A stretch of 64,000 bases of DNA from Planktomarina temperata RCA23 (lineage in GTDB: Bacteria; Pseudomonadota; Alphaproteobacteria; Rhodobacterales; Rhodobacteraceae), in the NCBI RefSeq assembly GCF_000738435.1, contig NZ_CP003984.1:2976001-3040000 (forward strand). Reading direction: 5' to 3'. A model generated the notes under the pieces. That model saw only the letters and a list, made by a program, of their open reading frames with translations. It ran no database searches and had not been told where the DNA came from. This document shows, one piece after another, positions 15,571-30,970 of this stretch (the first letter of the stretch is position 1; each line of letters begins with the position of its first letter). The position numbers and the translations under genes are program-made.

Positions 15571-16971
15571 CTAACCCACCAAGGACGGCAGCCACAGAAC
15601 AATTCCCGGAAAGGCGACCAAAAGCGCGATTGTGACACCATCCGCAAGGAAGAAGGGGGTGACGCCTTTGAAGACATCCTGCACCGTCAAATCATCGCGC
15701 ACGCCTGCGACCACAAAGCAATTGAGGCCGATGGGCGGGGTGATCAGACAGAACTCCGCCATTTTCACCACCAATATCCCAAACCAAATCGCACACATCG
15801 TGCCATTCATGCCAAAGGCGCTGTCAGCCGCAGTCACAAATTCACCACCATTGAGTGCCATGACGGCCGGGTAGACCACTGGCAACGTCAAAAGCAACAT
15901 GCCAATCGCATCCATGAACATGCCCAAAACCGCATAGGCCAAAAGGATGCAGATCAGAATAAGCAAAGGCGCCATGTCCAGGCTGGTAATCCAATCAGAA
16001 AACACCCCCGGAAGATCGGCAAATCCCAAGAACCGCACATAAATCAGCACGCCCCAAATGATTGAGAAGATCATCACGGTCAATTTGGCCGTTTCAAGCA
16101 GAGCATCTTTCAGCTGAGCCCAGCGCATACCACGGTAGAGCGCCATCAGAAACACGATGAACGCGCCGACGGCGCCACCTTCTGTGGGTGTGCCCCAGGC
16201 ATCCCCAAAGGGATTGTAAACAAAGAAGATGATAATCACGACCACAGCGACAATCGGCAAAGCCGGTGGCAGGGCTGCAAAACGTTCGCGCCAAGTGAAG
16301 CCTGTCACCGGTGGGCCAACGTTTTTGAAGATCACTGCAATACCAATGATGAGCCCGGCATAGACCAAAGCCGAAAAAGCACCGGGAATAAAGCCCGCCA
16401 ACAGCAGCTTTCCCACATCCTGCTCAACGATAATCGCGTAGATGACCAAAATAGCAGAGGGCGGAATGAGCGACGCCAAAGTCCCGCCAGCCGCCACAAC
16501 GCCAGCGGCAAATTGCTTATTATAGCCGATTTTCAGCATCTCAGGGATCGCAATCCGCGCAAAAACCGCCGCCGTGGCCACCGATGCACCAGAAACCGCC
16601 GCAAAGCCTGCTGTCGCGAAAACCGTAGAGACCGCAAGACCGCCAGGCACCCAAGCGATCCACCGTTTCGCGGCCTCAAAAAGGGCCGTGGTCAACTTGG
16701 CATAATAGGCCAAATAGCCGATCAAAATAAACGTCGGAATAAGGCTCAAGGCCTGCGCAGCTATTTTTGAATGCGGCACTTGGCCGGCAATTTTTACGCT
16801 AATGGTCAGGGCTTTGCCAAATTTTGCCGGGTCATAGTCAAAGCCGTTCCAGCGCAACCAAAACAAGCCAACAAAGCCCGCAAGACCCGCGGCAAAAGCC
16901 ACCCGCATACCGATGAAAACCAAAACCAGCATGCCGCCGGTGGTCCATAGACCTATTGAAATAGGATCCAT
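15571..16971 (-). CDS. dctM: TRAP transporter large permease DctM
   Basis: The main membrane subunit of a sodium-coupled tripartite ATP-independent periplasmic importer: 466 residues with about 12-13 membrane segments and the DctM-type stretches VSGASVATAAVFARIAIPEM, GGTLASLIPPSAILVIYAII and ITPPIGLNCFVVAGV. The small-permease stop and this ATG share one base (TGATG), or four bases if GTG 16974 is used, so translation is coupled. Operon dctP-dctQ-dctM. Somewhat longer than the common ~430 residues. Confidence 0.92.
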   Translation of the reverse strand: MDPISIGLWTTGGMLVLVFIGMRVAFAAGLAGFVGLFWLRWNGFDYDPAKFGKALTISVKIAGQVPHSKIAAQALSLIPTFILIGYLAYYAKLTTALFEAAKRWIAWVPGGLAVSTVFATAGFAAVSGASVATAAVFARIAIPEMLKIGYNKQFAAGVVAAGGTLASLIPPSAILVIYAIIVEQDVGKLLLAGFIPGAFSALVYAGLIIGIAVIFKNVGPPVTGFTWRERFAALPPALPIVAVVVIIIFFVYNPFGDAWGTPTEGGAVGAFIVFLMALYRGMRWAQLKDALLETAKLTVMIFSIIWGVLIYVRFLGFADLPGVFSDWITSLDMAPLLILICILLAYAVLGMFMDAIGMLLLTLPVVYPAVMALNGGEFVTAADSAFGMNGTMCAIWFGILVVKMAEFCLITPPIGLNCFVVAGVRDDLTVQDVFKGVTPFFLADGVTIALLVAFPGIVLWLPSLVG

Positions 16972-17600
16972 CACTCTTGCTCCGCCAAATGGGCCGCTTC
17001 TGCCATGGCCTGTTCTTCAATTGTTAAGATCAAGGGCACAGCCACCGGGCGCTCCAATCCGAGGACCAATGCACGGCCATAGCCAATAATCTGCAAGACG
17101 AGCCGCACCGCCAAGAGCGAGAAGGCGACGGGAACCAGAAGTTTGGCCGGCCACATCGGAATGCCGATATCAATCGAGCTGTCACGGCTCCAAAGAGGTT
17201 TGGCGAAATCAAAACTGCGGTCAAAATGCGCCCAAGAGCCCCAGATTAGCGCCAAAATAACGACCAAAATCAGCGTCACAGTCAGCAGCTCCAACGCCCA
17301 GAGCACCCGGCCTCGCATCTTGCCGATGATCATATCCATACGAATATGACCCCCGAAACGTTGCACATAGGACACTCCCATAAAGGCAATCACCGGCATG
17401 GCCGCCTCGATATAGTCGACATAACCATTCAAGGGCTGGTTGAAAAATTTGCGGCCTGAAACAGAGTAAGCCGCGAGAAACATGAGTGAAAATACGGCCA
17501 ATCCGCTGAATAATGCAAAGATGCGCTCAACTGGCAAAAGTGCGCGATCAGCGCGGCTGAGCCAAGACTCGTCTTGCAGAACAGATGAGGAGGAAGCCAT
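16971..17600 (-). CDS. dctQ: TRAP transporter small permease DctQ
   Basis: A 209-residue membrane protein with four hydrophobic segments and the family pattern VIAFMGVSYVQRFGGHIRMDMIIGKM. It forms the complex with DctM. AAGGGACG precedes ATG 17600. It lies 81 bases after dctP with a strong hairpin between, and overlaps dctM. Confidence 0.9.
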   Translation of the reverse strand: MASSSSVLQDESWLSRADRALLPVERIFALFSGLAVFSLMFLAAYSVSGRKFFNQPLNGYVDYIEAAMPVIAFMGVSYVQRFGGHIRMDMIIGKMRGRVLWALELLTVTLILVVILALIWGSWAHFDRSFDFAKPLWSRDSSIDIGIPMWPAKLLVPVAFSLLAVRLVLQIIGYGRALVLGLERPVAVPLILTIEEQAMAEAAHLAEQE

Positions 17601-17640
17601 AGCGTCCCTTTCGGGTTAAATTGACAGCGCGTAAAATATC

Positions 17641-17673
17641 AAAACACCTGCCCCTCTCGAAAAGGGGCAGGTG
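17641..17673 (-). terminator. Hairpin after dctP (terminator or attenuator)
   Basis: An 11-base perfect stem (CACCTGCCCCT 17645-17655 with 17663-17673), seven-base loop, followed on the minus strand by TTTT. It lies nine bases after the dctP stop and before dctQ, so it probably reduces transcription into the permease genes and protects dctP mRNA. Confidence 0.75.
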
Positions 17674-17681
17674 CGATTGGA

Positions 17682-18698
17682 TTAATTGCCCTTACGGGTG
17701 TTTTCCAAAGTGGTCATGACAAGGTCAAACAATTCTTGACCAGGAATGCCCTGCGCTTCCATATCGGCGATCCAAGCCGCACGGATTGGATCGGCGGCTT
17801 GTGCGCGGAACGCTGACAATTCGGCATCGCTGATGGTGACTTTTTCAACACCTTTTTCGGCAAGAACGTCATCCCAGCGCTGCAGCAATTTGGCGTAGTT
17901 TTCGAGATAATATTCAATCGACTCGTCAACGGATTCATCCAACACAGCGCGGTGCGCATCAGACAGGCTTTCATAGGCATCGATGTTGACGACAACCGGA
18001 CAGTTCACAGTGCCTGGGTTCAGATTCTCCGTCCACCAATCCGCACGATTGATTGTGCCATAGGACAAATGCGCATGCTGCGCAAAGGCCACGGTGTCCA
18101 CAACACCCGATTCCATCGCTTGATAGGCTTCGGTTGCTGTCACGGATGTGGGCACACTGCCAACCGATGCGAAAGCTTTGCCCAGACCACCTGTGGCCCG
18201 CACGCGCATACCTTCGAAATCCGCTAGGGTCGAACGCGGATCACCAGTGCCAACGATGTTATATTGAGGCATCGGTGAGGTCATAAGCAAACGCGCATTC
18301 CATTGTGCCATTTCTTCGGTCGCTGCCGGATGGGCATAGACTGCATGACTAACCGCAACTTCTTCTGCCAAATTTGCAACGCCTAAGAACGGCAGTTCCA
18401 AAACAGTCACCACGCGGTTTTTGTCTGGATGATAGCCGGCACAGAATTGCGCCATTTCAAAGGCCCCAATGGAAATCCCATCGAGGTTTTCGCGGTTCTT
18501 TGACAGACCGCCGTAGCTAACATTCATCGTGAATTCGCCATTGGTTTTCGCCGAGACCAATTCTGCCAATTTCTCAACATGCTCGGTAAACGCCCGACGC
18601 TTGCCCCATACAGAAACATTCCACTCTGTAGCGATGGCCTCGCCAGCAAAGGCAACTGTCAATGCAGCAATGGCCGTCTTCATTCCTAGATTTTTCAT
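17682..18698 (-). CDS. dctP: TRAP transporter periplasmic substrate-binding protein DctP
   Basis: A 338-residue periplasmic binding protein; signal peptide at residues ~1-23 (ending AIATE). The mature part has the DctP fold markers VSYGGLSKNRENLDGISIGAFEM and FEGMRVRATGG, including the Arg that usually holds a substrate carboxylate. GGGAGG lies eight bases before the ATG. First gene of the dctPQM operon. The substrate is unknown. The stump of a LacI-family regulator upstream suggests the ancestral system was controlled by a local repressor now lost. Confidence 0.9.
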   Translation of the reverse strand: MKNLGMKTAIAALTVAFAGEAIATEWNVSVWGKRRAFTEHVEKLAELVSAKTNGEFTMNVSYGGLSKNRENLDGISIGAFEMAQFCAGYHPDKNRVVTVLELPFLGVANLAEEVAVSHAVYAHPAATEEMAQWNARLLMTSPMPQYNIVGTGDPRSTLADFEGMRVRATGGLGKAFASVGSVPTSVTATEAYQAMESGVVDTVAFAQHAHLSYGTINRADWWTENLNPGTVNCPVVVNIDAYESLSDAHRAVLDESVDESIEYYLENYAKLLQRWDDVLAEKGVEKVTISDAELSAFRAQAADPIRAAWIADMEAQGIPGQELFDLVMTTLENTRKGN

Positions 18699-19340: not shown

Positions 19341-20093
19341 TTATGACATTAGTAAACCAATACTAATTGTTGCTAGGATCGATAAAATCATTTTTTGAAA
19401 AATTTTTTCAGACAATCTTTCACGGATTGCCGCCCCAGCTTTTACGCCGATGAATACGCATAAAACACCCAAGGTAGAAATCACAACATCCGACCCTGTG
19501 AACAGCCCCAAATATCCCAACCCAACCATCATGATCAGACTTGAAATTGTAAACGAACAATTCGCGGCCTGAATAAACGCATTCCGGCCTAGGTGCAACG
19601 ACATCAAAAATGGAACTACTGGCATAACCTGTGAACCAGTTAGCCCGTTTAAAAAACCAGTGCAGATGCCAGAGATAGGAGCAAGCCTGTCTTCTAGTCC
19701 ACTTGGCAATCGAAGGTCTGGTTTAAGAAATGAAAAACAACACCACATGAGCAAAACAAGACCTAAGATAATCTTGGCCGTGGCCCCATCAGTTCCTGAA
19801 AGAACCCACAGACCCAATAACAGACTGGGAATGGTTGCAAGTAGCATTGGCCAAAACCGCAGGATCGTGGATTTAAACTGACCCACTTGGCGCATTACCA
19901 CAAGATTTGAACAGATCGATGGGATCAACACCAACGAAAGCGCGTCCTTTAAGCCAATCGCGAACACCAAAATTGGTAGGCAGGTCGTTGAAAAACCCAA
20001 ACCCGTGATGCCCTTTGCCGTGGCGGCAAAAAGGTATGCTGCAAAAATCGTAATGATTTCGACTGTTGTTAAATCAAATGCGGTGATCGGCAA
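19341..20093 (-). CDS. TauE/SafE family exporter (first copy)
   Basis: A 250-residue inner-membrane protein with about eight hydrophobic segments in two repeats; the first repeat opens AAYLFAATAKGITGLGFST, the second GICTGFLNGLTGSQVMP, the glycine-rich pattern of the TauE/SafE (DUF81) family. Members export sulfite, sulfoacetate or related anions, though others serve different ions. The start codon is TTG 20093, 20 bases inside the end of the aminotransferase gene, so the two are translationally coupled. Its partner copy stands at 24108-24872 in a mirrored arrangement. Confidence 0.85.
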   Translation of the reverse strand: MPITAFDLTTVEIITIFAAYLFAATAKGITGLGFSTTCLPILVFAIGLKDALSLVLIPSICSNLVVMRQVGQFKSTILRFWPMLLATIPSLLLGLWVLSGTDGATAKIILGLVLLMWCCFSFLKPDLRLPSGLEDRLAPISGICTGFLNGLTGSQVMPVVPFLMSLHLGRNAFIQAANCSFTISSLIMMVGLGYLGLFTGSDVVISTLGVLCVFIGVKAGAAIRERLSEKIFQKMILSILATISIGLLMS

Positions 20094-21240
20094 GATATTT
20101 CAACGCACTTTGTGCACCACCTGACTGATGAGGCACGCCTGCCCGTATCATGCCCATTTCCACACCACTTAGCGTTCCCATAAGCATCAAATCATTGAAG
20201 TCGCCCAAATGACCAATGCGGAAAATTTTATCAGCGACTTTATTTAACCCCGTTCCAAGGGACATATCAAACCCGTCCAATATTTCAGCGCGCAACGCAT
20301 CGCCCCCCTGTCCATCAGGCATTAATACAGCGGTCAGGCTGTTTGATCGTTCGTCTGGATTTAACGCCAAAATCTCGAACCCCCATGACTCAACTGCTGC
20401 GCGGGTCGCTGATGCGTGGCGCTCATGGCGTGCAAATACCTGCTCCAATCCTTCTCCCGCCAACATATCCAAAGCCTCACGCAATCCATAAAGAAGTGTC
20501 GTGGCGGGTGTGTATGGGAAATAGCCCGCATCATTCGGCGTCATCATATCGCGCCAATCCCAATAGGAACGGCGATCCCCGCCCGCCTGACAAGCGGCCC
20601 AAGCTTTTTCCGAAATGGCATTGAATGACAATCCAGGGGGCAACATCAATCCCTTTTGTGATCCTGCAACGACCACATCGACACCCCACGCGTCTGTTTT
20701 GAAATCAATAGAGCCAAGAGATGAAATGGTATCCACCATCATAAGCGCGGGATGCGCTGCACCATCAATCGCAGCGCGTACGGCACCGATATCGGATGTA
20801 ATACCCGTTGCGGTATCATTGTGAACAACGCAGACAGCCTTAATCTTGTGATCCGTGTCTTTGGCTAATGCATCTGCAATCAAATTCGCGTCTACGCCGC
20901 GCCGCCAGTCACCCGCGATAAAGATGGGATCATACCCCAACTTGGTCGCCATGTTTTTCCACAATGTCGAAAACTGACCCGTTTCATACATCAACACCTG
21001 ATCACCCGGTTGCAACACATTGACCAATGCGGCCTCCCATGCGCCGGAACCAGAGGCGGGATAGATAACAACACGACCTTCTGTTTGGAAAACCGGCTTT
21101 AAATCACGCAGCAAACCCAATCCTAATTCTGCGAACTCTGGCCCACGGTGATCAATAACCGATCGATGCATCGCACGCAAAATACGTTCGGGTGTATTGG
21201 TGGGTCCGGGAATTTGAAGAAAGTGACGTCCTGATCTCAT
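20074..21240 (-). CDS. Class V aminotransferase (serine/alanine-glyoxylate type)
   Basis: PLP enzyme of 388 residues with the PGPTNTPERILRAM start of the alanine/serine-glyoxylate aminotransferase group, the VDTISSLGSIDF segment with PLP-ring Asp, and the Schiff-base Lys196 in AGSQKGLMLPPG. Such enzymes exchange an amino group between a small amino acid and glyoxylate, pyruvate or an aldehyde. ATG 21240 is chosen; GTG 21264 is an alternative; neither has a clear ribosome site. It is divergent from the FAD/Fe-S dehydrogenase gene (71-base gap) and overlaps the first TauE gene. Its acceptor in this cluster is unknown. Confidence 0.85.
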   Translation of the reverse strand: MRSGRHFLQIPGPTNTPERILRAMHRSVIDHRGPEFAELGLGLLRDLKPVFQTEGRVVIYPASGSGAWEAALVNVLQPGDQVLMYETGQFSTLWKNMATKLGYDPIFIAGDWRRGVDANLIADALAKDTDHKIKAVCVVHNDTATGITSDIGAVRAAIDGAAHPALMMVDTISSLGSIDFKTDAWGVDVVVAGSQKGLMLPPGLSFNAISEKAWAACQAGGDRRSYWDWRDMMTPNDAGYFPYTPATTLLYGLREALDMLAGEGLEQVFARHERHASATRAAVESWGFEILALNPDERSNSLTAVLMPDGQGGDALRAEILDGFDMSLGTGLNKVADKIFRIGHLGDFNDLMLMGTLSGVEMGMIRAGVPHQSGGAQSALKYLADHRI

Positions 21241-21310
21241 ACTGTTAACCGAAAAAAGTTGCACTACACCGCTACAAAAGTGAATGTGATGACAGGAAAG
21301 GTCAAGTGAA
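21241..21310. promoter_or_regulatory. Divergent intergenic region of the two TauE-linked arms
   Basis: Only about 70 bases separate the aminotransferase start from the dehydrogenase start, so both promoters must be here or overlap. AGGAAAGG (21294-21301) is the ribosome site of the plus-strand gene. No convincing operator palindrome was seen beyond a GTTAAC. Confidence 0.45.
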
Positions 21311-24124
21311 ATGGCAGACTATGATCGTTTGAAAAAACAAATCGAAGGCGATATTCTGAATTCCTCTTTTGATCGCGGACGCTATGCGACCGATGCCTCG
21401 ATCTATCAGATCATGCCGAAGGCGGTCATGGTCCCAAAAACATGGCAGGACGTAGAAGCCGCGCTGGATTTTGCCAAGGATGAGGGCATTTCACTGTTGC
21501 CACGAGGTGGGGGAACCTCACAATCAGGGCAAACCGTGAATGATGCCTTGGTCATTGATTTCACAAAACATTTAAACAACATACTAGATTATGATGCTGA
21601 TGCGGGAACAGCCACGGTACAACCTGGGTTGGTTCTAGATAACCTAAATCGTCAATTAAAATCAGATGGATGGTGGTACCCTGTTGATGTGTCGACGGCG
21701 TCGCGCGCAACCCTTGGAGGGATGGCGGCCAACAATTCCTGTGGATCGCGTTCGATCCGATATGGCAAGATGCAGGATAATGTGCGCGCTCTGACCGCGA
21801 TGACCGTTGATGGCACAACACGGCGGTTTGAATATGCGGATACAACACAGTCATTAGATGCGGATATGCGCACGCTTGCCTTACAGGAACAGGATGAAAT
21901 CACCACACGCTTTCCCAAGGTTCAGCGGCGCGTGGGCGGGTACAACATTGATGCCCTTTTGGGCGATACGCCACATATCGGCCGCCTTTTGGTTGGATCC
22001 GAAGGGACACTGGCCCTGACGAAAAGCATTGATTTGAAATTGTCCCCTGTGTTGGGAACAAAAACATTGGGCGTGTGCCATTTCCCCACATTTTACGCGG
22101 CAATGGACGCCGCACAGCACATCGTTAAATTGGGCCCCATTGCTGTGGAATTGGTTGATCACAATATGATCCAGTTGGGGCGTGATATCCCACAGTTTCG
22201 ACCCATCGTTGAAAGTTTCGTCCAAGGAAATCCAGCCGCCCTTCTCTTGGTTGAATTTGCCGAAACACCCGAGGAAAACAAAAGACGCCTCAATGCGCTG
22301 GTCGAATTGATGGGCGATCTGGGTTTTTCATGGACGGACAAAAATAAAGCCACAGGTGGTGTGTTGAAGGTTGAGGACCCCACATTCCAAGCACGCATTT
22401 GGGGTGTGCGCACGCAAGGATTAAACATCATGATGTCTATGCGCAGCGAAGGAAAGCCCGTGTCCTTTGTCGAGGATTGCGCCGTTCCTCTGGAACATCT
22501 GGCCGATTTCACCAGCCAGCTGACAGACGTCTTTCACAATCACGGCACGGACGGCACGTGGTATGCCCATGCCTCGGTCGGGTTGTTGCATGTGCGTCCT
22601 GTTTTGAACCTGCGACAGGATTTGGGACTACGTCAGATGCGGGCCATCGCGGAAGAGGCCTTTGATCTTGTCTCAAAATTCAAAGGCTCGCATTCAGGCG
22701 AACACGGGGACGGCATCGTACGTTCGGAGTTCCACGAACGGATGTATGGGTCAAAAATGATCCGTATCTTTGAAACAGTGAAAGACCGCTTTGATCCAAA
22801 CGCGGTATTGAACCCTGGTAAAATAACCCGATCCCCGAAAATGGACGAACGGGCGATTACCCGCTGGCCCAAAAATTATTCCCCACAAACGCCAGATACA
22901 GTATTCGACTGGAATGCTTGGCCCGGTGGTTTGGCAGGTGCGGTAGAAATGTGTAACAACAACGGTGCCTGCCGCAAAAGCGTTGGGGGTGTGATGTGTC
23001 CATCCTTCCGCGTCACTGGTGCGGAAAAGGACCTGACGCGTGGACGGGCCAATGTGTTGCGTTTGGCATTAACGGGCCAATTGGGGGATGATGCCTTTGC
23101 ATCCAATGACATGGCAGATGCCATGGCACTTTGTGTGGGATGCAAGGCATGCAAATCAGAATGTCCCATGTCTATCGACATGGCCAAAATGAAAACTGAG
23201 GTGCAAAGTGCACGCGCCGCAAAATATGGCGTGCCAATGCGCGAAAAACTGATCGCGGCCCTGCCCCGCATGGCGCCAATTGCGTCCACCTTTTCACCTC
23301 TCTCGAACTTTGCGCTCAAATTTGGCTATCTCTTCGGATTTGACAAAACCCGCCGCCTACCAGATTTTCAAAAACCGTATTCAGGGCCTGAAGGCGGTGA
23401 TGTTTTGTTATTCGCAGATACGTTCAACCGCCATTTCGATCCTGAAACATTACGCGCCGCGGAACGGGTTATTGGCGCCACAGGTAAAACCGTAGGCGTT
23501 ATATCGGCGCCTGGTCGTCCCCTTTGTTGTGGTCGCACACACCTAAGCACCGGTCAGACCGATCGCGCAAAACAGGAATTGCAGCGCACAACAGATGCAT
23601 TTCGTGCGGCACTAGATGCTGGCAAAACAATTGTCGGTTTGGAACCATCTTGCACATTGATGTTTCGTGATGAGGCCGTAAACCTGATCCCCGAGTGGAC
23701 AGAGGCACATGGCGCACAAATCCTGACCTTTGCCGAATATATTATGCAAAACCCACCCGCGGGCTTGGATATGTCGGTACTGGATGTTTTGGTACATGGA
23801 CACTGCCACCAGAAGGCGATGGGTGTCGCCCAATACACTGTTGATGCGGTGAAAAGTGTACTGGGTGCCAATGCGCAGATGATCGACAGTTCCTGTTGCG
23901 GAATGGCCGGGTCCTTCGGCTATCAGGTCGAAACCGCCGAGGTGTCGCGCCAAATGGCTGAATTATCGCTGGCCCCAACAGTGCGCGCGGCCCCCACGGA
24001 TACAATTGTTTTAGCAGACGGGTTTTCCTGTCGCTGTCAGATCAAAGATGTAACAGAACGTAAGGCGATGAACCTTGCCCTTCTAATGGATAAGGCACTA
24101 CAAGATAATGTCACAAATTATTGA
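21311..24124 (+). CDS. FAD-linked 2-hydroxyacid dehydrogenase fused to 4Fe-4S/CCG domains (GlcD/YdiJ-like)
   Basis: A 937-residue fusion. Residues ~1-510 are the FAD-binding oxidase (PCMH) half: LPRGGGTSQSGQ, TLGGMAANNSCGSRSIRYG, GSEGTLA and SGEHGDG. After it comes a ferredoxin-like region (CNNNGACRKSVGGVMCP, then CVGCKACKSECPM), then cysteine-rich CCG modules (LCCGRTHLS, HGHCHQKAMG, SSCCGMAG). The architecture is that of D-lactate/glycolate/D-2-hydroxyglutarate dehydrogenases passing electrons to quinone or a flavoprotein. Substrate unresolved; glycolate or sulfolactate would fit neighbours. It overlaps the second TauE gene by 17 bases. Confidence 0.88.
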   Translation: MADYDRLKKQIEGDILNSSFDRGRYATDASIYQIMPKAVMVPKTWQDVEAALDFAKDEGISLLPRGGGTSQSGQTVNDALVIDFTKHLNNILDYDADAGTATVQPGLVLDNLNRQLKSDGWWYPVDVSTASRATLGGMAANNSCGSRSIRYGKMQDNVRALTAMTVDGTTRRFEYADTTQSLDADMRTLALQEQDEITTRFPKVQRRVGGYNIDALLGDTPHIGRLLVGSEGTLALTKSIDLKLSPVLGTKTLGVCHFPTFYAAMDAAQHIVKLGPIAVELVDHNMIQLGRDIPQFRPIVESFVQGNPAALLLVEFAETPEENKRRLNALVELMGDLGFSWTDKNKATGGVLKVEDPTFQARIWGVRTQGLNIMMSMRSEGKPVSFVEDCAVPLEHLADFTSQLTDVFHNHGTDGTWYAHASVGLLHVRPVLNLRQDLGLRQMRAIAEEAFDLVSKFKGSHSGEHGDGIVRSEFHERMYGSKMIRIFETVKDRFDPNAVLNPGKITRSPKMDERAITRWPKNYSPQTPDTVFDWNAWPGGLAGAVEMCNNNGACRKSVGGVMCPSFRVTGAEKDLTRGRANVLRLALTGQLGDDAFASNDMADAMALCVGCKACKSECPMSIDMAKMKTEVQSARAAKYGVPMREKLIAALPRMAPIASTFSPLSNFALKFGYLFGFDKTRRLPDFQKPYSGPEGGDVLLFADTFNRHFDPETLRAAERVIGATGKTVGVISAPGRPLCCGRTHLSTGQTDRAKQELQRTTDAFRAALDAGKTIVGLEPSCTLMFRDEAVNLIPEWTEAHGAQILTFAEYIMQNPPAGLDMSVLDVLVHGHCHQKAMGVAQYTVDAVKSVLGANAQMIDSSCCGMAGSFGYQVETAEVSRQMAELSLAPTVRAAPTDTIVLADGFSCRCQIKDVTERKAMNLALLMDKALQDNVTNY

Positions 24125-24872
24125 TTTAACATATAATTTTGACCCACTACAAACATTGATCCTAATCGGGATATTTTTGTTTGCAGCCATCGTAAAAGGC
24201 TTTTTAGGCATCGGTTTACCTGCCGCTTCAATGGCGTTCTTAACGCTTGTGATGTCCCCAACAGAAGCAATACCGCTATTATGGTTGTCCATTCTAGCTA
24301 CCAACTCACTGCAGTTTGCCCAAGCACCAAACAAATTGGACATCGCGCGGGAATATTGGCTGTTCGCTTTGGCGATTATGGTGTCGATTTTCGTCACATC
24401 TATGTTCATTACGGCCTATCCGACAGCTCTGCTTACAGTGGCGATCGGCATTGCGATGATGCTGTTTTCTTTAAACCTGCTGTTGGGTGTTAAATTGAAC
24501 ATTGGCCCAGGGCGTGGATGGCATTTAGGATTTGGGGTGCTGTCAGGAGTATTGGGCGGGATCAGTTCAATCTGGTCACCCACTGTCGCAATGTATTTGG
24601 TGGCACGTGATGTCAGTAAGGAACGATTTATCGGGGCAACAGGATTCTTGTTCTTAGCAGGTGTCTTGCCTTTGGGTGCAGGTCAATTGGTTGCCGGAAT
24701 CCTAACAGGCCCTGCATTGATCAAATCAAGCCTTGCGTTGATCGTCGTCCTAATTGGATTTCGCATTGGTGAACTACTGCGCCAACGTGTCAGCCAAAAA
24801 TTATTTCGCAAAGCCGTTTTGATTGCGTTTTTCTTCATGGGTCTGCGCCTGATCATCAACGGCATTACCTAG
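24108..24872 (+). CDS. TauE/SafE family exporter (second copy)
   Basis: A 254-residue inner-membrane protein, about eight hydrophobic segments, first repeat FLFAAIVKGFLGIGLPAASMAF and second GFGVLSGVLGGISSIWSP, typical of the TauE/SafE family. Its ATG lies inside the last codons of the FAD/Fe-S dehydrogenase gene, giving coupling. It ends with TAG in a CTAG shared with the stop of the opposing ligase gene. It is only distantly similar to the first copy, so probably not a recent duplicate. Confidence 0.85.
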   Translation: MSQIIDLTYNFDPLQTLILIGIFLFAAIVKGFLGIGLPAASMAFLTLVMSPTEAIPLLWLSILATNSLQFAQAPNKLDIAREYWLFALAIMVSIFVTSMFITAYPTALLTVAIGIAMMLFSLNLLLGVKLNIGPGRGWHLGFGVLSGVLGGISSIWSPTVAMYLVARDVSKERFIGATGFLFLAGVLPLGAGQLVAGILTGPALIKSSLALIVVLIGFRIGELLRQRVSQKLFRKAVLIAFFFMGLRLIINGIT

Positions 24873-26359
24873 GAACCATATAACATTTTGTTCAAATATA
24901 GGCGCTGGATTTTACCGGATGCTCCTTTGGGCAACTCTGGCAGAATATGTACCTTTTCTGGCGATTTAAATATTCCCAACTTTGCCTCACACAATGCACG
25001 TAACTGCTCGGGAGTGGCGTTCGATGTCTCGTTTAAACGCACTGCCGCCTCTACGCGTTCCCCATATTGCGCACAGGGCCGGGCGAATGCGGCGGCCTCA
25101 ACCACATCGGGATGTTCGTATAGAACCTCGTCGATTTCTCGCGGCGCGATGTTTTCACCGCCCTTGATAATCAACTCTTTCAAACGCCCCGTTACAAAGA
25201 CATAGCCATCTTCATCCATACGTCCCAAATCCCCCGTGCGCAGCCAATCATCATGAAAGGTGGCCGCAGTGGCATCGGGATTGCGTAAGTATTCTTTCAT
25301 CACATTGGGACCTTGGATTTGAATTTCACCCTCAACCCCACAGGCACATTCAATACCATTCCCATCAGCAATACGCGCCTGATTGCTGATTGCTTTGCCC
25401 GCAGACCCAATTTTATGCAGGCGGGGATCCAATGGGTTAACCAAACATTGTGCTGCCGTTTCCGTCAGGCCCAAAGATTCCACAATACCCAAGCCAAAGC
25501 GGTCCTGAAAGGCACGCTGTGTTTCAACCGCGAGCGCCGAGGATGCAGAGCGCACAAAACGCAGGCGGGATTTCAAATCGGCACTTGGCTCTGCCGCTCC
25601 ATGCAGCAGGTGACTGATGATCGTGGGGACAGCAGAAAACCACGTAATTCCGCCATCTGCGGCCTGTTGCCAAAATTTGCTGGCGGAAAAACGTGATACC
25701 ATCGCCAAGGATCCACCTGATACCAAACTGCCCATGACGGACACGCACAGACCATTGATATGATAAAAGGGTAAAACCCCCATTCCACGGTCTTGTTCAG
25801 TCAATTCATGGGCCACACTGACAGTCCAACCACCTGCCAATAGGCTAGATTGCGTGTGAACGACGCCCTTGGGTCGCCCAGTGGTGCCAGAGGTATACAT
25901 TAACAATGCATCGTCATCTGAGGAAAGGGGATGCAGGTTTTTCCGCTGATCCGTTGGCGTATATAGTTTCAACCGTTCTGGTTTCACCTGATGGAACACG
26001 TCCAATTGTGTTTCATGCACGAAAGCCACCCACGCCGCGGAATGATCCATGGCATAGCCAAGCGCATCCGGCCCTGCGGCTAAATTTAACATCGTAACAC
26101 GAAACCCACCATAGAGCGCGGCAAACAACGCCTTAACCCCATCATATCCGTTGGGATGCATCACTACGATACTTTCACCTTTGACAATGCCTTGTGCCGT
26201 TAGATCAGCCGCCACCATCGCGCAGTGATCGCGTAAATCAGCCCAATTTAGGGTCTGTTCCGTTTCGGGAAAAACAAATGCCGTACCTCCGCGTTCAGCA
26301 CGGGCGTCAATCCAATCCCTCAGCGTTCCTTGAGGAGGCGTAGTTGTATCAAATCTCAT
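24869..26359 (-). CDS. AMP-forming acyl-CoA ligase, SauT-like (candidate sulfoacetate-CoA ligase)
   Basis: ANL-family ligase of 496 residues with the AMP-binding motif YTSGTTGRPKGVVHT, the adenine motif LGLTETAAQ, TGDLGRMDEDGYVFVTGR and the C-terminal GASGKIQR Lys. It activates a carboxylic acid with ATP and CoA. ATG 26359 overlaps the stop of the upstream acylating aldehyde dehydrogenase by four bases (ATGA). The ligase + acylating dehydrogenase pair is the SauT/SauS arrangement of sulfoacetate catabolism in Cupriavidus necator. Alternatives are ligases for oxalate, malonate or other short acids. Confidence 0.8.
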   Translation of the reverse strand: MRFDTTTPPQGTLRDWIDARAERGGTAFVFPETEQTLNWADLRDHCAMVAADLTAQGIVKGESIVVMHPNGYDGVKALFAALYGGFRVTMLNLAAGPDALGYAMDHSAAWVAFVHETQLDVFHQVKPERLKLYTPTDQRKNLHPLSSDDDALLMYTSGTTGRPKGVVHTQSSLLAGGWTVSVAHELTEQDRGMGVLPFYHINGLCVSVMGSLVSGGSLAMVSRFSASKFWQQAADGGITWFSAVPTIISHLLHGAAEPSADLKSRLRFVRSASSALAVETQRAFQDRFGLGIVESLGLTETAAQCLVNPLDPRLHKIGSAGKAISNQARIADGNGIECACGVEGEIQIQGPNVMKEYLRNPDATAATFHDDWLRTGDLGRMDEDGYVFVTGRLKELIIKGGENIAPREIDEVLYEHPDVVEAAAFARPCAQYGERVEAAVRLNETSNATPEQLRALCEAKLGIFKSPEKVHILPELPKGASGKIQRLYLNKMLYGS

Positions 26360-27741
26360 TTCCCAGCAAGGCTCCAATACCCATCAAAGATGTCTTCTAA
26401 TTTGGGTTCACGCGATGAAATTTCGCGAATAATTTTTGTTGATTGTAGAAAGTGGCGATAGTTCACATTTTCATTCACAGAATTGCCCCCCCATGTGCCA
26501 CACCCCATCGACAGGGAAAAGGGCATGCCATTAGTGAACGATCCACCCGTCGCAAATGTATGCGCCTGATTAACAATGATCCGACTGGTGGGGATTGCCG
26601 TTGCCAAGGTATACGCGCGCTCATCCAATGCAGAATGTAATCCCACCGAATGCCCTGCCCCCTGATAAGCCTGAATTTTATGCGTCATATCCAAAGCAGC
26701 GTCAAAATCAGACGCGCAATACAGAGCCAAAACACGGCTAAGTTTTTCGCCAGACAGCGGATGATCCGGACCTATACCTGATGTCGGCACAACCAAAAAT
26801 TCAGTCCCCTCTGGCACGTCCACATCAAGGGCAGCAATCATTTTATCCGCATCTTGTGCAATGACCGAACGGTTCAAATGCCCATCCGGCCATAGTTTGG
26901 ATACCAACGCTGCCTCATCCGCATAAAACGCACCACCTGCGCGCGCGAGTGCAGCAATGAAATCATCGTAAACTGCATCCACCACAACAACCGAATTTTC
27001 CGAGCTGCAAGAAGTGGCATTATCAAAGCATTTAGACGCCCGAATTTTTGCTGCAGCCCCATCCAAATCTGCGGTTTCATCTACGATCACTGTCACATTT
27101 CCAGCGCCTACAGCAACTGCTGGGGTCCCTGCGGTTTGTGCGCGATGCACGTTGTTTTGGCTGCCCGTGCAGACGATCATATCACACTGATCCATCAATG
27201 TTTGTGTCTTTTCTTTGGACCCAGGTGTGGGGATCATTTGCACCAGTGCGGGATCCTCGCCAATTTTCGCAAACTCGGCATGGATATATTCAAGCAACAG
27301 TTCACAACAGGCTACCCCCTTAGGCGATGGCGCGACCACAATTGAATTGCCGCATTTCAACGCATTGATTATGTTATTAGCAGGTGTAGCCGCAGGGTTT
27401 GTTGAGGGCACAATCGCACCCACAACCCCTTTGGGGCGGGCAATTTCCGTAATCCCTGTTTTAGGATCATCCGACATAACACCAAAGGTCACCACATTTT
27501 GAATATCCTGCATTAGACCTAATGTTTTACGATGATTTTTAATGATCTTATCAGGAACATTTCCCAGCCCTGTAGTTTCCACGGCCAATTCTGCCAAACG
27601 CCGATTGCGGGCGGGTTCCATAATCACCCATGCCACAGCTTGCGCAGCGTGGTCATAGCGCTGCTGCGATCCATTTTTTTCGTACTCTGCCTGTGCGATG
27701 CGCGAATGCGCAACAATCGCCTGAACGCCAGTATCCGTCAT
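26356..27741 (-). CDS. CoA-acylating aldehyde dehydrogenase, SauS-like (candidate sulfoacetaldehyde dehydrogenase)
   Basis: 461 residues, the size of SauS and of other CoA-acylating aldehyde dehydrogenases. Seen are VGAIVPSTNPAATPANNIINALKCGN, CTGSQNNV, VGAGNVTV and catalytic Cys245 in FDNATSCSSENS, with the glycine-rich end SLSMGCGTWGGNS. It interconverts an acyl-CoA and an aldehyde with NAD(P)H. GGAG lies eight bases before ATG 27741. It follows tctA by 31 bases and overlaps the ligase gene. The direction expected with a ligase beside it is acid to acyl-CoA to aldehyde. Substrate identity is inferred from context only. Confidence 0.82.
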   Translation of the reverse strand: MTDTGVQAIVAHSRIAQAEYEKNGSQQRYDHAAQAVAWVIMEPARNRRLAELAVETTGLGNVPDKIIKNHRKTLGLMQDIQNVVTFGVMSDDPKTGITEIARPKGVVGAIVPSTNPAATPANNIINALKCGNSIVVAPSPKGVACCELLLEYIHAEFAKIGEDPALVQMIPTPGSKEKTQTLMDQCDMIVCTGSQNNVHRAQTAGTPAVAVGAGNVTVIVDETADLDGAAAKIRASKCFDNATSCSSENSVVVVDAVYDDFIAALARAGGAFYADEAALVSKLWPDGHLNRSVIAQDADKMIAALDVDVPEGTEFLVVPTSGIGPDHPLSGEKLSRVLALYCASDFDAALDMTHKIQAYQGAGHSVGLHSALDERAYTLATAIPTSRIIVNQAHTFATGGSFTNGMPFSLSMGCGTWGGNSVNENVNYRHFLQSTKIIREISSREPKLEDIFDGYWSLAGK

Positions 27742-27772
27742 TCCATAAACTCCGTTTCAGGTTACCCCAGCC

Positions 27773-29263
27773 TTATGCCTTTGTCTTAATTGAGGTAAAC
27801 GCGCGGTAGATGTTTGATGCAAGAGTGATTACACCTGCAGCGATCAAAATTGCACAAATTGGACGAGAAAAATACGTGCCCAAATCGTAATGCACCATCT
27901 GCATGCCTTGCGCGAAATTTTGTTCGCCAATTTTACCAAGAATCAAACCTAGTACAATTGCAGGGATCGAAAACCCAGAACGGCGCAGCAGATACCCAAT
28001 AATGCCTGCTAGGAACATTACCATCACATCCAAAACCAAACCACGTCCGATATAAGCCCCTGTTGTGGCCAACATCAAAATAAGCGGTGCCAAGAACTGG
28101 AATGGGATTTTCAATAGGTTCAAAATAGTTTTGGTTTCTAAAACACCAATGATCAGGATGGACAAATTGGCGTAGAACATCGCCGCAAACACAATCCAAA
28201 TCAGATCAGGTGACAGCATAAAAACCAATGGACCAGGTTGCAGATCATGCATTTGGAACACCGCAACCATCATCGCGGTTAATGCGCCTCCCGGCAGACC
28301 CAATGCCAACAGCGGGATCATCGCCGCACCCGTTGCCGCGTTGTTTGCGGTTTCTGCGGAAATAACCCCTTCTAGTTTACCCTTGCCAAACTCCTCTGGG
28401 TTTTTGGACCACCGCACAGCTTCGCCATAACTCATGAAAGCGGCGAGCGTGGCGCCAATGCCCGGCAGGATGCCACAGAAAAACCCAACTAGGATAGATC
28501 GCAGCACAGCGATTTTATGCATCCATAGTTCAATAAAAGATGGAAACGTCATGCTGACTTTGGGTGCCTGGTATTTACCGCTGGCCTTCTTCTCAGCCTG
28601 AACAAAGATTTCTGAAACCGCAAAGAACCCCAAGATCGCAGGGATAAACGCAATACCAGCGGCTAAATCAGTCATGCCAAAATTATAACGGTTGATGCCT
28701 CCCACCGGATCTTGACCAATGGTTGCGATCAACAATCCGATTAGGACCGACATCCAGCCTTTCCAAATGGTGCGCGCCCCAACGGATGAGGCGACGATTA
28801 GACCAAAGAAAACAAGAGCAAAGATTTCAGGCGGGCCAATGTTGCGGATCGCCCAATTTGCTAATGGTTCGGTTGCGGCCATCATAACGAGGGCCGATGC
28901 AATGCCCCCAATGGCCGAACACAACACGGCTGCGCCAACAGCCTTTCCCGATTGGCCTTTTTGCGTCATGGGGTAGCCATCAAACGCGGTTGGAGCATTT
29001 TCGGCGGATCCAGGAATGTTGAACAAAATTGCAGTAATCGCACCGCCATAGGTCCCAGTACAGTAAATGACCGCAAACAACATAACGCCCTGTGCAGGTT
29101 CCAGGCTTGCGGTAAAGGGCAACAAAATCGCCGCAAGTGTCAGCATACTAACCCCGGGGATTGCCCCAAACAACATGCCGCCCACGACGCCAAAGACGAA
29201 GATGCCTATCGTGAAGGGATCACCAAAAAGAGCTGCGGAACCCGCTAAAAAATTCTCGATCAT
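27773..29263 (-). CDS. tctA: Tripartite tricarboxylate transporter permease TctA
   Basis: A 496-residue membrane protein with about 11-12 segments and the family hallmarks GGMLFGAIPGVSMLT and YGGAITAILFNIPGSAENAPTAFDG near the N terminus and FCGILPGIGATLAAFMSYGEA in the middle. It is the large permease of the TTT importer for carboxylates or sulfonates. It starts six bases after the tctB stop. Confidence 0.93.
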   Translation of the reverse strand: MIENFLAGSAALFGDPFTIGIFVFGVVGGMLFGAIPGVSMLTLAAILLPFTASLEPAQGVMLFAVIYCTGTYGGAITAILFNIPGSAENAPTAFDGYPMTQKGQSGKAVGAAVLCSAIGGIASALVMMAATEPLANWAIRNIGPPEIFALVFFGLIVASSVGARTIWKGWMSVLIGLLIATIGQDPVGGINRYNFGMTDLAAGIAFIPAILGFFAVSEIFVQAEKKASGKYQAPKVSMTFPSFIELWMHKIAVLRSILVGFFCGILPGIGATLAAFMSYGEAVRWSKNPEEFGKGKLEGVISAETANNAATGAAMIPLLALGLPGGALTAMMVAVFQMHDLQPGPLVFMLSPDLIWIVFAAMFYANLSILIIGVLETKTILNLLKIPFQFLAPLILMLATTGAYIGRGLVLDVMVMFLAGIIGYLLRRSGFSIPAIVLGLILGKIGEQNFAQGMQMVHYDLGTYFSRPICAILIAAGVITLASNIYRAFTSIKTKA

Positions 29264-29269
29264 TGCGCT

Positions 29270-29815
29270 TTAAATCCCTTGCAACTTAGCATTCAGTTTC
29301 AGCACCCACGCGCTGAAATCATAAAAGGGTGACACATTGCCTTGGGGCAATGGAGCGTTCAAAATCATTAGGAATAGCCCAATGAAAACACAATAAATAA
29401 ACAGAGTCATGATCAAGATCACCTTCCATCTACGTTCGCCAAAAAACCAGATAATTGCGGCAATGAAAAACGGTGCACTAAAGTAAATGCCAATTGGTTT
29501 GAGCAGATAGGCAAATATTAACGGCGTCAGCAGCACGGCTATCATGCGGCGTACAGTTCCGGCCTCACTAAAGTCTGCCTTATCCTCCGATTGGCCCAAA
29601 GTTGCCTGTGTCGCGTTGCCATAGCGATAATGGAACCAAAGATTTCCAAGTGTCGCCAATAGTAAAAATCCAACCACAACTCGTGGCCATGCGGTGGCCC
29701 CAAAGATATAGATTTCGATAGGTTGATTGAATTCGAATGAAAAGGCGTAAAAAATGCCAGCGATCAACAAAAAAATCGCGGCTTCGATCAGATTACTGAG
29801 TGTTAGTCGTCCCAC
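29270..29815 (-). CDS. tctB: Tripartite tricarboxylate transporter small permease TctB
   Basis: A 181-residue membrane protein with four hydrophobic segments (LIEAAIFLLIAGIFYAFSF, then ATAWPRVVVGFLLLATLG, two C-terminal) as in TctB. I prefer GTG 29815 because the longer frame start near 29854 falls inside the terminator-like hairpin after tctC; GGGA lies eight bases before the GTG. Confidence 0.85.
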   Translation of the reverse strand: MGRLTLSNLIEAAIFLLIAGIFYAFSFEFNQPIEIYIFGATAWPRVVVGFLLLATLGNLWFHYRYGNATQATLGQSEDKADFSEAGTVRRMIAVLLTPLIFAYLLKPIGIYFSAPFFIAAIIWFFGERRWKVILIMTLFIYCVFIGLFLMILNAPLPQGNVSPFYDFSAWVLKLNAKLQGI

Positions 29816-29841
29816 AGTATATTCCCATGCTCGCAGCAGAA

Positions 29842-29867
29842 AACATGGCGCCAAACGGCGCCATGTT
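29842..29867 (-). terminator. Hairpin after tctC (terminator or attenuator)
   Basis: A perfect 11-base stem (AACATGGCGCC 29842-29852 with 29857-29867) and four-base loop, 19 bases after the tctC stop, followed on the minus strand by a short T-rich run. Probably lowers transcription from the abundant binding-protein gene into the membrane and enzyme genes. Confidence 0.75.
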
Positions 29868-29885
29868 ATATTTATTATCTTTTGT

Positions 29886-30899
29886 TTATTTCACGTCTAG
29901 GCCCATGGCTTTGTACACTTCGCGATACTGCTCGATCGAACGGGCAATCAAATCTTTTGCACCGTTAGTATCACGATAGCTGTCAATCACAGTCATGAAT
30001 TTTGATTCATTGAATGCCTGGTAGCTGTCTTCACAATATCCACGCTGAAAAGCCCACTTTAGCCATTCGACGCGATCTACTGGTGCATCTGCATGTACAT
30101 AGAATCCCCGAAAACGTAGCAATGGATCAAAATCCATACCCACTTCTCGGTGCGTTGGCGTATCTGCAAACGCGGCTGGGCGTTCATCAAAGATTGTTAG
30201 GATTGGTTTAAATTGACCCGCATCAAGGAAGTTGCGCACATCACCAGGCTGCTCAAAAAGGGCGTCCACTTGTCCACCCAACAAGGCGCCGTAACGTGGG
30301 GCACCCTTGTCGAATGAGATCTGCTGAATTTTCATGCCACTTGCATCGGTGATAAAGCCCATTGTGACACGCTCCATCGAACCCTCTTTGGATACGTTCG
30401 CAATGGTTGCTTTGCCGTTTTGCGCCTTGACCCATTCTACAAAAGATGGCCAATCGCTAAAACGTGTTTCATTTGTGCGGATATACACCTGACTGAATGT
30501 CACCTGGCTAACCACCAGTGGGATCAAATCATCTGCTGGGTTTGGCATTGATGAATCCAACGCATGCGCAGAGGACGCGTCATCAATGTGTTCCAAAACG
30601 TTATATCCATCTGCTGGCGCCGCCATATAGGCCGTCATACCAACAGTCCCAGAACCGCCTGGTTTGTGATCGCGGTTGATTGGAATGCCAGTCAGTTCAG
30701 TCACCGCTTCGGCCATCGCAGCAGCTACCTGCCCTGATCCACCTGCAGGACCATATGGTACGATCATTGTCAAAGCACGCTCTGGAAACCCACCAGGTTT
30801 GTCAAAAGATGCTTCACCACGTTTACACTCAAATGCATACGCCGATCCAGCTGCCATCATCGCAGCACAAAGTGCCGCTGTTCCAATAATATTTCTCAT
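29886..30899 (-). CDS. tctC: Tripartite tricarboxylate transporter substrate-binding protein TctC
   Basis: A 337-residue periplasmic protein; signal peptide residues ~1-22 (ending SAYAF). The mature part has the TctC pattern ERALTMIVPYGPAGGSG, PINRDHKPGGSGTVGM and VDALFEQPGDVRNFLDAGQ. GGGAGG precedes the ATG. First gene of tctC-tctB-tctA-dehydrogenase-ligase; the catabolic genes being in the same unit suggest its ligand is the substrate of the ligase. A cysteine pair (mature Cys near the N terminus and one in GYCEDS) may form a disulfide. Confidence 0.92.
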   Translation of the reverse strand: MRNIIGTAALCAAMMAAGSAYAFECKRGEASFDKPGGFPERALTMIVPYGPAGGSGQVAAAMAEAVTELTGIPINRDHKPGGSGTVGMTAYMAAPADGYNVLEHIDDASSAHALDSSMPNPADDLIPLVVSQVTFSQVYIRTNETRFSDWPSFVEWVKAQNGKATIANVSKEGSMERVTMGFITDASGMKIQQISFDKGAPRYGALLGGQVDALFEQPGDVRNFLDAGQFKPILTIFDERPAAFADTPTHREVGMDFDPLLRFRGFYVHADAPVDRVEWLKWAFQRGYCEDSYQAFNESKFMTVIDSYRDTNGAKDLIARSIEQYREVYKAMGLDVK

Positions 30900-30956
30900 T
30901 TTTTACCTCCCTTATGGGTGCCGCAACGTAAAATCTTACCCCTAGCTTGCCGAACC

Positions 30957-30970
30957 GAACCATATGGTTC
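30957..30970. promoter_or_regulatory. 14-base palindrome upstream of tctC, candidate operator
   Basis: GAACCATATGGTTC is a perfect 14-base palindrome, 58-71 bases before the tctC ATG, the right place for a regulator site of the tct operon. No regulator gene is found in the cluster, so the cognate factor must be elsewhere. Confidence 0.45.

Follow-up and report, generated by a model that had tools for sequence, protein, structure and literature searches.

A 64 000-nucleotide stretch of the Planktomarina temperata RCA23 chromosome (the window; G000:C1:2976001-3040000 of a single-contig 3.29-Mb genome) carries, at positions 19341-30899, nine genes that probably unite two modules in one cassette: a sulfoacetate module, made up of a tripartite tricarboxylate transporter (TTT) and the enzymes SauS and SauT, and a separately evolved, glycolate-type pair of a class V aminotransferase and a flavin adenine dinucleotide (FAD)/Fe-S dehydrogenase. 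Named relatives of the window genes belong to Rhodobacterales. Gene content, protein families, phylogeny, genome linkage and the presence of a lower pathway were analysed. All nine open reading frames (ORFs) lie where an earlier note on this DNA had placed them, and profile scores confirm the families it had named, two TauE proteins included. The genes are as follows.

19341..20093, minus strand: TauE1, TSUP-family membrane transporter (PF01925 87.4 bits, cut-off 32.6; kept in L184 at 85% and in L185 at 61% identity)
20074..21264, minus strand: class V aminotransferase, serine-glyoxylate/BhcA type (Aminotran_5; NF045640 BhcA 439.6 bits, under the cut-off of 650; 6pk1 370 bits)
21311..24124, plus strand: FAD/Fe-S 2-hydroxyacid dehydrogenase, one chain (FAD_binding_4, FAD-oxidase_C, Fer4, CCG; divergent partner of the aminotransferase)
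24108..24872, plus strand: TauE2, TSUP-family transporter (PF01925 69.2 bits, cut-off 32.6; 76% identity to L128 5756-6523 in genome G170)
24869..26377, minus strand: SauT-type sulfoacetate-CoA ligase, AMP-forming (PF00501, AMP-binding, 231 bits; SauT clade; TETAA/HING/RSAS signature)
26356..27741, minus strand: SauS, CoA-acylating sulfoacetaldehyde dehydrogenase (Aldedh; NF047625 651 bits, cut-off 600; tree)
27773..29263, minus strand: TctA, large membrane subunit of the TTT importer (PF01970 434.5 bits; separate lineage)
29270..29854, minus strand: TctB, small membrane subunit of the TTT importer (PF07331 55.4 bits)
29886..30899, minus strand: TctC, periplasmic solute-binding protein (PF03401 54.8 bits; 4 of 212 genomes, its own included, have a close homologue)

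The tctC, tctB, tctA, SauS and SauT genes lie on the same strand, separated in turn by 31, 6 and 31 bp, and the last two overlap by 22 bp, a spacing consistent with the single operon that the earlier note had proposed. TauE1 overlaps the aminotransferase gene by 20 bp and TauE2 the dehydrogenase gene by 17 bp, TauE2 and SauT meet tail to tail (4 bp), and no regulator gene lies within the nine-gene cassette. For the aminotransferase, a start at 21240 (MRSGRHFL) is more likely than one at 21264. The nine genes recur in identical order and orientation in Ruegeria arenilitoris HKCCC1153 (L185), with identities to the window of 61% for TauE1, 81% for the aminotransferase, 75% for the dehydrogenase, 84% for TauE2, 80% for SauT, 82% for SauS, 93% for TctA, 76% for TctB and 86% for TctC; a Rhodobacteraceae metagenome-assembled genome (MAG; L184) has the same arrangement as far as the contig reaches, part of SauT being masked. 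Since this order and orientation recur in L185 and L184 among genes that differ from those around the window copy, a chance arrangement is excluded and, judged by gene order, the nine genes behave as a cassette.

The proposed sulfoacetate module and its lower pathway

Sulfoacetate use by the TTT/SauS/SauT arm, as suggested in the earlier note, is well supported by the equivalog score, phylogeny, linkage to xsc and a complete lower pathway. Against the NCBIfam equivalog model NF047625, with its cut-off of 600 bits, SauS reaches 651 bits. The SauS tree unites the sequences from the window, L184, L185 and G170 in a clade (support 100/98) nested within a Rhodobacterales SauS clade (100/100). The two members that stand apart from all others of this larger clade, G276 and Paracoccus sp. 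TOH, both have a SauS-SauT-major facilitator superfamily (MFS) transporter layout, and xsc is nearby in each: in G276 it follows SauT at a distance of about 1.7 kb, and in Paracoccus sp. TOH it precedes SauS by about 5 kb. In G276 the order LacI-SauS-SauT-MFS-xsc is found in one run (L264 8907-16571), bringing upper and lower sulfoacetate pathway together. Remoter SauS genes that are accompanied by an ADP-forming ligase lie near xsc in Rhodococcus and Indioceanicola and near pta in Azospirillum and Indioceanicola. On a plasmid of the haloarchaeon Haloterrigena sp. KLK7 (L271 3000-8628), a TTT and a SauS gene (675.6 bits, over the cut-off) are followed by a CoA-transferase gene and the ligase is absent; this CoA-transferase may represent a third way to activate sulfoacetate.

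The closest solved structures to SauT are oxalate-CoA ligases (265 bits), but an alignment and quick tree group it with all other SauT sequences, that of Caballeronia included (Shimodaira-Hasegawa-like approximate likelihood-ratio support of 88-92 on the deep split). SauT sequences share the motifs TETAA, HING and RSAS, where the three solved oxalate-CoA ligases have TEA[TS]H, HVHG and RSCS; the window SauT carries Ala at the column of the TEA[TS]H histidine, a residue common to 3/3 of those ligases. It is 41% identical to Caballeronia SauT and 57% identical to an xsc-linked SauT. Given the missing histidine, the grouping with SauT, the SauS score and the xsc linkage, its assignment as an oxalate-CoA ligase was set aside. 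The likeness to SauS/SauT in length, order and motifs to which the earlier note had drawn attention also holds, judged by the NF047625 score, the layout in Caballeronia and the SauT signature.

The rest of the route is encoded elsewhere on the chromosome. The xsc gene (C1:177162-178892) scores 930 bits against a cut-off of 676 and is adjoined by pta (347.5 versus 311.2 bits), after which genes for molybdopterin and Fe-S subunits occupy the soeAB position. Upstream of xsc are tauA/tauB/tauC-like genes, a class III aminotransferase gene in the tpa position, a MocR-type regulator gene and a gene for a TauE-like membrane protein, so that the whole resembles a taurine-type island (L183 3345-10804 together with L016 12109-19403). 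In R. pomeroyi, soeA, pta and tauR are annotated under adjacent locus tags (PMC4334477). Among 296 genomes of the order, SauS is present at 65% identity or more in 51, and xsc is present in 48 of these versus 153 of the 245 others (Fisher p 1.4e-6, without correction for kinship). The earlier note had held that a grouping of the two enzymes with a non-sulfonate clade, or a genome lacking xsc or another desulfonation gene combined with inactivity on sulfonates, would refute sulfonate use; SauS and SauT instead fall in sulfonate-linked clades and xsc is present.

Of the genes that the earlier note had proposed to look for elsewhere in the genome, xsc and pta were located and SuyB was not: in single-family searches of the genome no SuyB-like locus was found, the sole UxaA-type match being a protein of 515 residues in a uronate-like region. 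Cysteate sulfo-lyase, CuyA, is present (509 bits, cut-off 450); its gene (L180 9771-10859) adjoins a LysR gene and a betaine-type ATP-binding cassette (ABC) transporter, with no TauE-like exporter adjacent. No stand-alone ComE-like thiamine diphosphate (ThDP) ORF was seen among the matches, which did not come from ComD/ComE models of their own, and a ThDP fragment at G000:C1:1993415 was rejected as ComE, its reading frames revealing a remnant inside other frames.

In the proposed scheme TctCBA would import sulfoacetate, SauT would convert it to sulfoacetyl-CoA at the expense of ATP, and SauS would reduce the thioester to sulfoacetaldehyde. Xsc would then combine sulfoacetaldehyde with phosphate to give acetyl phosphate and sulfite, Pta would turn acetyl phosphate into acetyl-CoA, and the sulfite would undergo oxidation by the SoeAB-like complex, whose genes adjoin the xsc locus, export through TauE2, or both.

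The aminotransferase/dehydrogenase pair

The dehydrogenase occurs in 35 of the 296 genomes, and each of these 35 also has the aminotransferase (identity from about 61% upwards), nearly always directly beside it and divergent. SauS and the dehydrogenase coexist in 14 genomes and are adjacent only in that of the window; elsewhere they are separated by more than 200 kb or do not share a contig. Of 121 loci fetched from several classes of proteobacteria and from one MAG each of Acidobacteria, Myxococcales and Desulfobulbaceae, 102 contain both genes, which in 75 of them are divergent with a gap of less than 500 bp; Beta- and Gammaproteobacteria are among the carriers. Recurrent neighbours are genes for GntR, for tripartite ATP-independent periplasmic (TRAP), TTT or amino-acid ABC importers, for enoyl-CoA hydratase and class III CoA-transferase, and an HbpS/GlcG-like gene (20 loci). 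In 119 loci xsc, pta, CuyA and SoeA are never near the pair, and SauS is near it solely in L184 and L185. We therefore read the pair as a separate, widespread module that would take no part in sulfonate breakdown, and the suggestion that all arms serve one C2/C3-sulfonate pathway is not upheld.

Several features together favour a conversion of a 2-hydroxyacid to a 2-oxoacid and on to an amino acid, most likely glycolate to glyoxylate to glycine. G171 has the gene run aminotransferase-TctC-TctB-TctA-dehydrogenase-bhcABCD, where 46 bp separate bhcA from the dehydrogenase gene, and in Tateyamaria the pair lies a few kilobases from bhcDCBA; BhcA is also commoner in genomes with the dehydrogenase (26/35 versus 135/261, p 0.009, uncorrected). 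The G171 run (L265 1380-13233) is a natural joining of the pair and a TctCBA importer with the β-hydroxyaspartate cycle. The closest solved structure to the aminotransferase is serine-glyoxylate aminotransferase (6pk1, 370 bits) and the closest model is BhcA, under whose cut-off it stays (NF045640, 439.6 versus 650 bits). The dehydrogenase falls below the cut-offs for YdiJ (NF049975, 509 versus 1350 bits) and GlcD (TIGR00387, 184.6 versus 567.9 bits); since none of the 296 genomes has a match near the TIGR00387 cut-off, the latter model says nothing about glycolate use in this order. Aligned with D-2-hydroxyglutarate dehydrogenase, the window enzyme has Val in place of the Lys of YKYD, which we take to bind the distal carboxylate; as a lead only, this points to a small substrate. 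The dehydrogenase would accordingly oxidise a small 2-hydroxyacid, most likely glycolate, to its 2-oxoacid (glyoxylate), the aminotransferase would convert this to the amino acid (glycine), and TauE1 may move one of the pair's acids or sulfite.

At L159 466-6030 and six similar loci the pair stands beside genes for an SsuA-like ABC importer, an FAA hydrolase and a malate/lactate-type dehydrogenase that scores best with the models for ureidoglycolate and for sulfolactate dehydrogenase, under the cut-off in either case. On a Sulfitobacter alexandrii plasmid (L281 4468-13037) sauST-TTT genes adjoin a class V aminotransferase gene and an amino-acid ABC importer; this aminotransferase was rejected as a counterpart, having no detectable similarity to that of the window.

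Importer, TauE proteins and genomic surroundings

Most of the roseobacter sauST loci inspected are arranged LacI-TctA-TctB-TctC-SauS-SauT, and all 20 inspected loci of the best SauS matches contain a TctA-type gene. The clade of the window, Ruegeria and G170 has lost the LacI gene and carries a TctA of another lineage (91-93% identical to the window protein). The window TctA is 33-37% identical to the roseobacter sau-linked TctA proteins and lies outside their clade, in a tree with weakly supported deep joins that is used solely to recognise a different lineage; it is 41-44% identical to TctA proteins linked elsewhere to the aminotransferase/dehydrogenase pair. By this comparison, the small clade has exchanged the usual TTT and LacI for another TTT together with TauE2, which in G170 (L128) adjoins SauT without the dehydrogenase. 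Remoter relatives of TctC are often sulfonate-linked, lying with SauST in Sulfitobacter alexandrii, with xsc-SauS-SauCD in Indioceanicola and with ssuD in Cytobacillus. The last of these loci, on a Cytobacillus oceanisediminis plasmid (L283 4837-8909), places a TTT importer beside the alkanesulfonate monooxygenase gene ssuD.

TauE1 and TauE2 both exceed the PF01925 cut-off and belong to the TauE/SafE (TSUP) family, their export substrates being predictions. TauE was rejected as a regular companion of the pair, such a gene being near it in just 4 of 119 loci, two of which are the cassette relatives.

To the right of the cassette are a 120-residue ORF and then 5S, 23S, tRNA-Ala and tRNA-Ile genes of an rRNA operon; to the left are genes for a TRAP transporter, an EamA-type permease, betaine-aldehyde dehydrogenase and propionate metabolism. 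The accessory nature of the cluster, already proposed in the earlier note, is supported, because its G+C content (47-53%) is below that immediately to its left (55-58%) and an rRNA operon adjoins it. The TRAP transporter directly to the left (window 15571-18698) may belong to the cassette functionally, as in G075 (L157) the pair has a comparable TRAP set nearby.

Known systems and alternative readings

The adjacent, overlapping SauS/SauT genes and the route to sulfoacetaldehyde and Xsc recall sauRSTU of Cupriavidus necator H16, for which Caballeronia sp. NK8 pNK83 (IclR-SauS-SauT-MFS) was used in comparison rather than the C. necator sequences themselves (identities of 54% for SauS and 41% for SauT). 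Unlike sauRSTU, the window has a TTT for the MFS transporter SauU, no IclR, two TauE genes and the attached pair. Hybrid clusters of sauST with a TTT importer have been described from sponge symbionts (PMC12625764), and the window resembles these, by their description, and many Rhodobacterales loci (L128-L147); in other roseobacters, however, the TTT is of the other lineage, usually comes with LacI and lacks TauE2. The SauXYZ-SauSCD type of Bilophila (PMC12625764), represented here by Azospirillum and Indioceanicola, likewise combines a TTT with SauS, but its ligase is the ADP-forming SauCD and not an AMP-forming SauT. The aminotransferase shares the class V family with serine-glyoxylate aminotransferase and BhcA (46% identity to Tateyamaria BhcA), but is well under the BhcA cut-off, has no bhcBCD adjacent and comes from a genome with no BhcA over the cut-off. 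The dehydrogenase has the FAD-binding, FAD-oxidase_C and Fe-S/CCG parts of YdiJ and the GlcDEF glycolate/D-2-hydroxyacid dehydrogenases, yet is far under both curated cut-offs.

It is unlikely, in our estimation, that the cassette constitutes one new pathway in which the exchanged TTT imports an acid used by both halves (such as a C3 sulfonate, which would undergo oxidation by the dehydrogenase and transamination, SauST serving a C2 branch) and the TSUP pair clears sulfite or a by-product. An unlikely scheme of this kind, modelled on the bifurcated sulfolactate route of Roseovarius nubinhibens, would have the dehydrogenase oxidise sulfolactate to sulfopyruvate, the aminotransferase form cysteate, CuyA desulfonate it, SauST provide the C2 branch and TauE1/TauE2 export sulfite. 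Such a joint pathway is conceivable because the genome has CuyA and Xsc and the cassette, with both TauE genes, is kept together in Ruegeria and the MAG; the literature, moreover, knows a membrane-bound sulfolactate dehydrogenase (SlcD) and a TTT sulfolactate importer (SlcHFG). It fits poorly with the 119 loci, in which desulfonation genes are never near the pair and SauS accompanies it in the two cassette relatives alone, with the results for SuyB and ComE given above and with an aminotransferase of the glyoxylate type.

The C2-acid route that the earlier note had offered as an alternative would dispense with sulfonates: oxalate would be imported, made into oxalyl-CoA by the ligase and reduced to glyoxylate by the aldehyde dehydrogenase, alongside glycolate oxidation and transamination to glycine. 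Its second part suits the aminotransferase/dehydrogenase half, which does look glyoxylate-directed, better than a sulfonate role does. For the ligase, the structural kinship with oxalate-CoA ligases is outweighed by its signature and tree position, by the SauS score and by the sister SauST genes adjoining xsc and the co-occurrence with xsc, making an entire cassette of this type very improbable. A shift of substrate within the clade, with SauS and SauT kept and the exchanged TTT and TauE2 serving a sulfoacetate-like acid such as 3-sulfopropionate or a dicarboxylate, also seems unlikely. The importer is of a separate lineage, its nearest TctC kin accompany CoA-transferase/thiolase genes (G146) or mutase/racemase-like genes (G090), and acylating dehydrogenases for 3-sulfopropionaldehyde are known (PMC11489063); but SauS is 77-80% identical to neighbours that retain the usual TTT, and remote TctC relatives stand beside SauS, xsc or ssuD.

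Certain observations weigh against the two-module reading itself. NF047625 is imperfectly specific, with genes in the non-sulfonate surroundings of L272 and L273 also over its cut-off, so that the SauS call was rested on phylogeny and linkage; the genes concerned lie in a β-oxidation-like operon (L272 6619-8076) and a polysaccharide-type locus (L273 6803-8197), and the model probably over-calls, or else SauS has unrecognised roles. Three of the 51 SauS genomes are without xsc. The two TctC homologues from outside the window clade (44-51% identity) belong to carboxylate operons without sulfonate genes; because these are the near kin and the remoter kin are often sulfonate-linked, import of sulfoacetate by the exchanged TTT is likely but not certain. 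CoA-transferase and enoyl-CoA hydratase genes are often next to the pair, so larger acids may be handled elsewhere, and the cassette is kept whole in two or more genera, a hint of some functional tie that the two-module reading leaves unexplained. On balance we think that the two halves share a package but not a metabolic route.

Both halves of the cassette are of known kinds. In the open-licence literature we found no description of the nine-gene set, in line with the earlier note, nor of the co-packaging, the importer exchange or a name for the aminotransferase/dehydrogenase pair. The marine pools of carbon and sulfur include sulfoacetate and glycolate, both of them small acids. The combination of sauST with a TTT, reported from sponge symbionts, is suggested to be common in Rhodobacterales, given SauS in 51 of 296 genomes and a TctA-type gene at 20 of 20 inspected best-match loci, and its importer can evidently be replaced while the SauS/SauT enzymes remain. 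The aminotransferase and FAD/Fe-S dehydrogenase would constitute a widespread module, found in 35 of the 296 genomes as well as in Beta- and Gammaproteobacteria and an Acidobacteria MAG, with a substrate that is directly testable.

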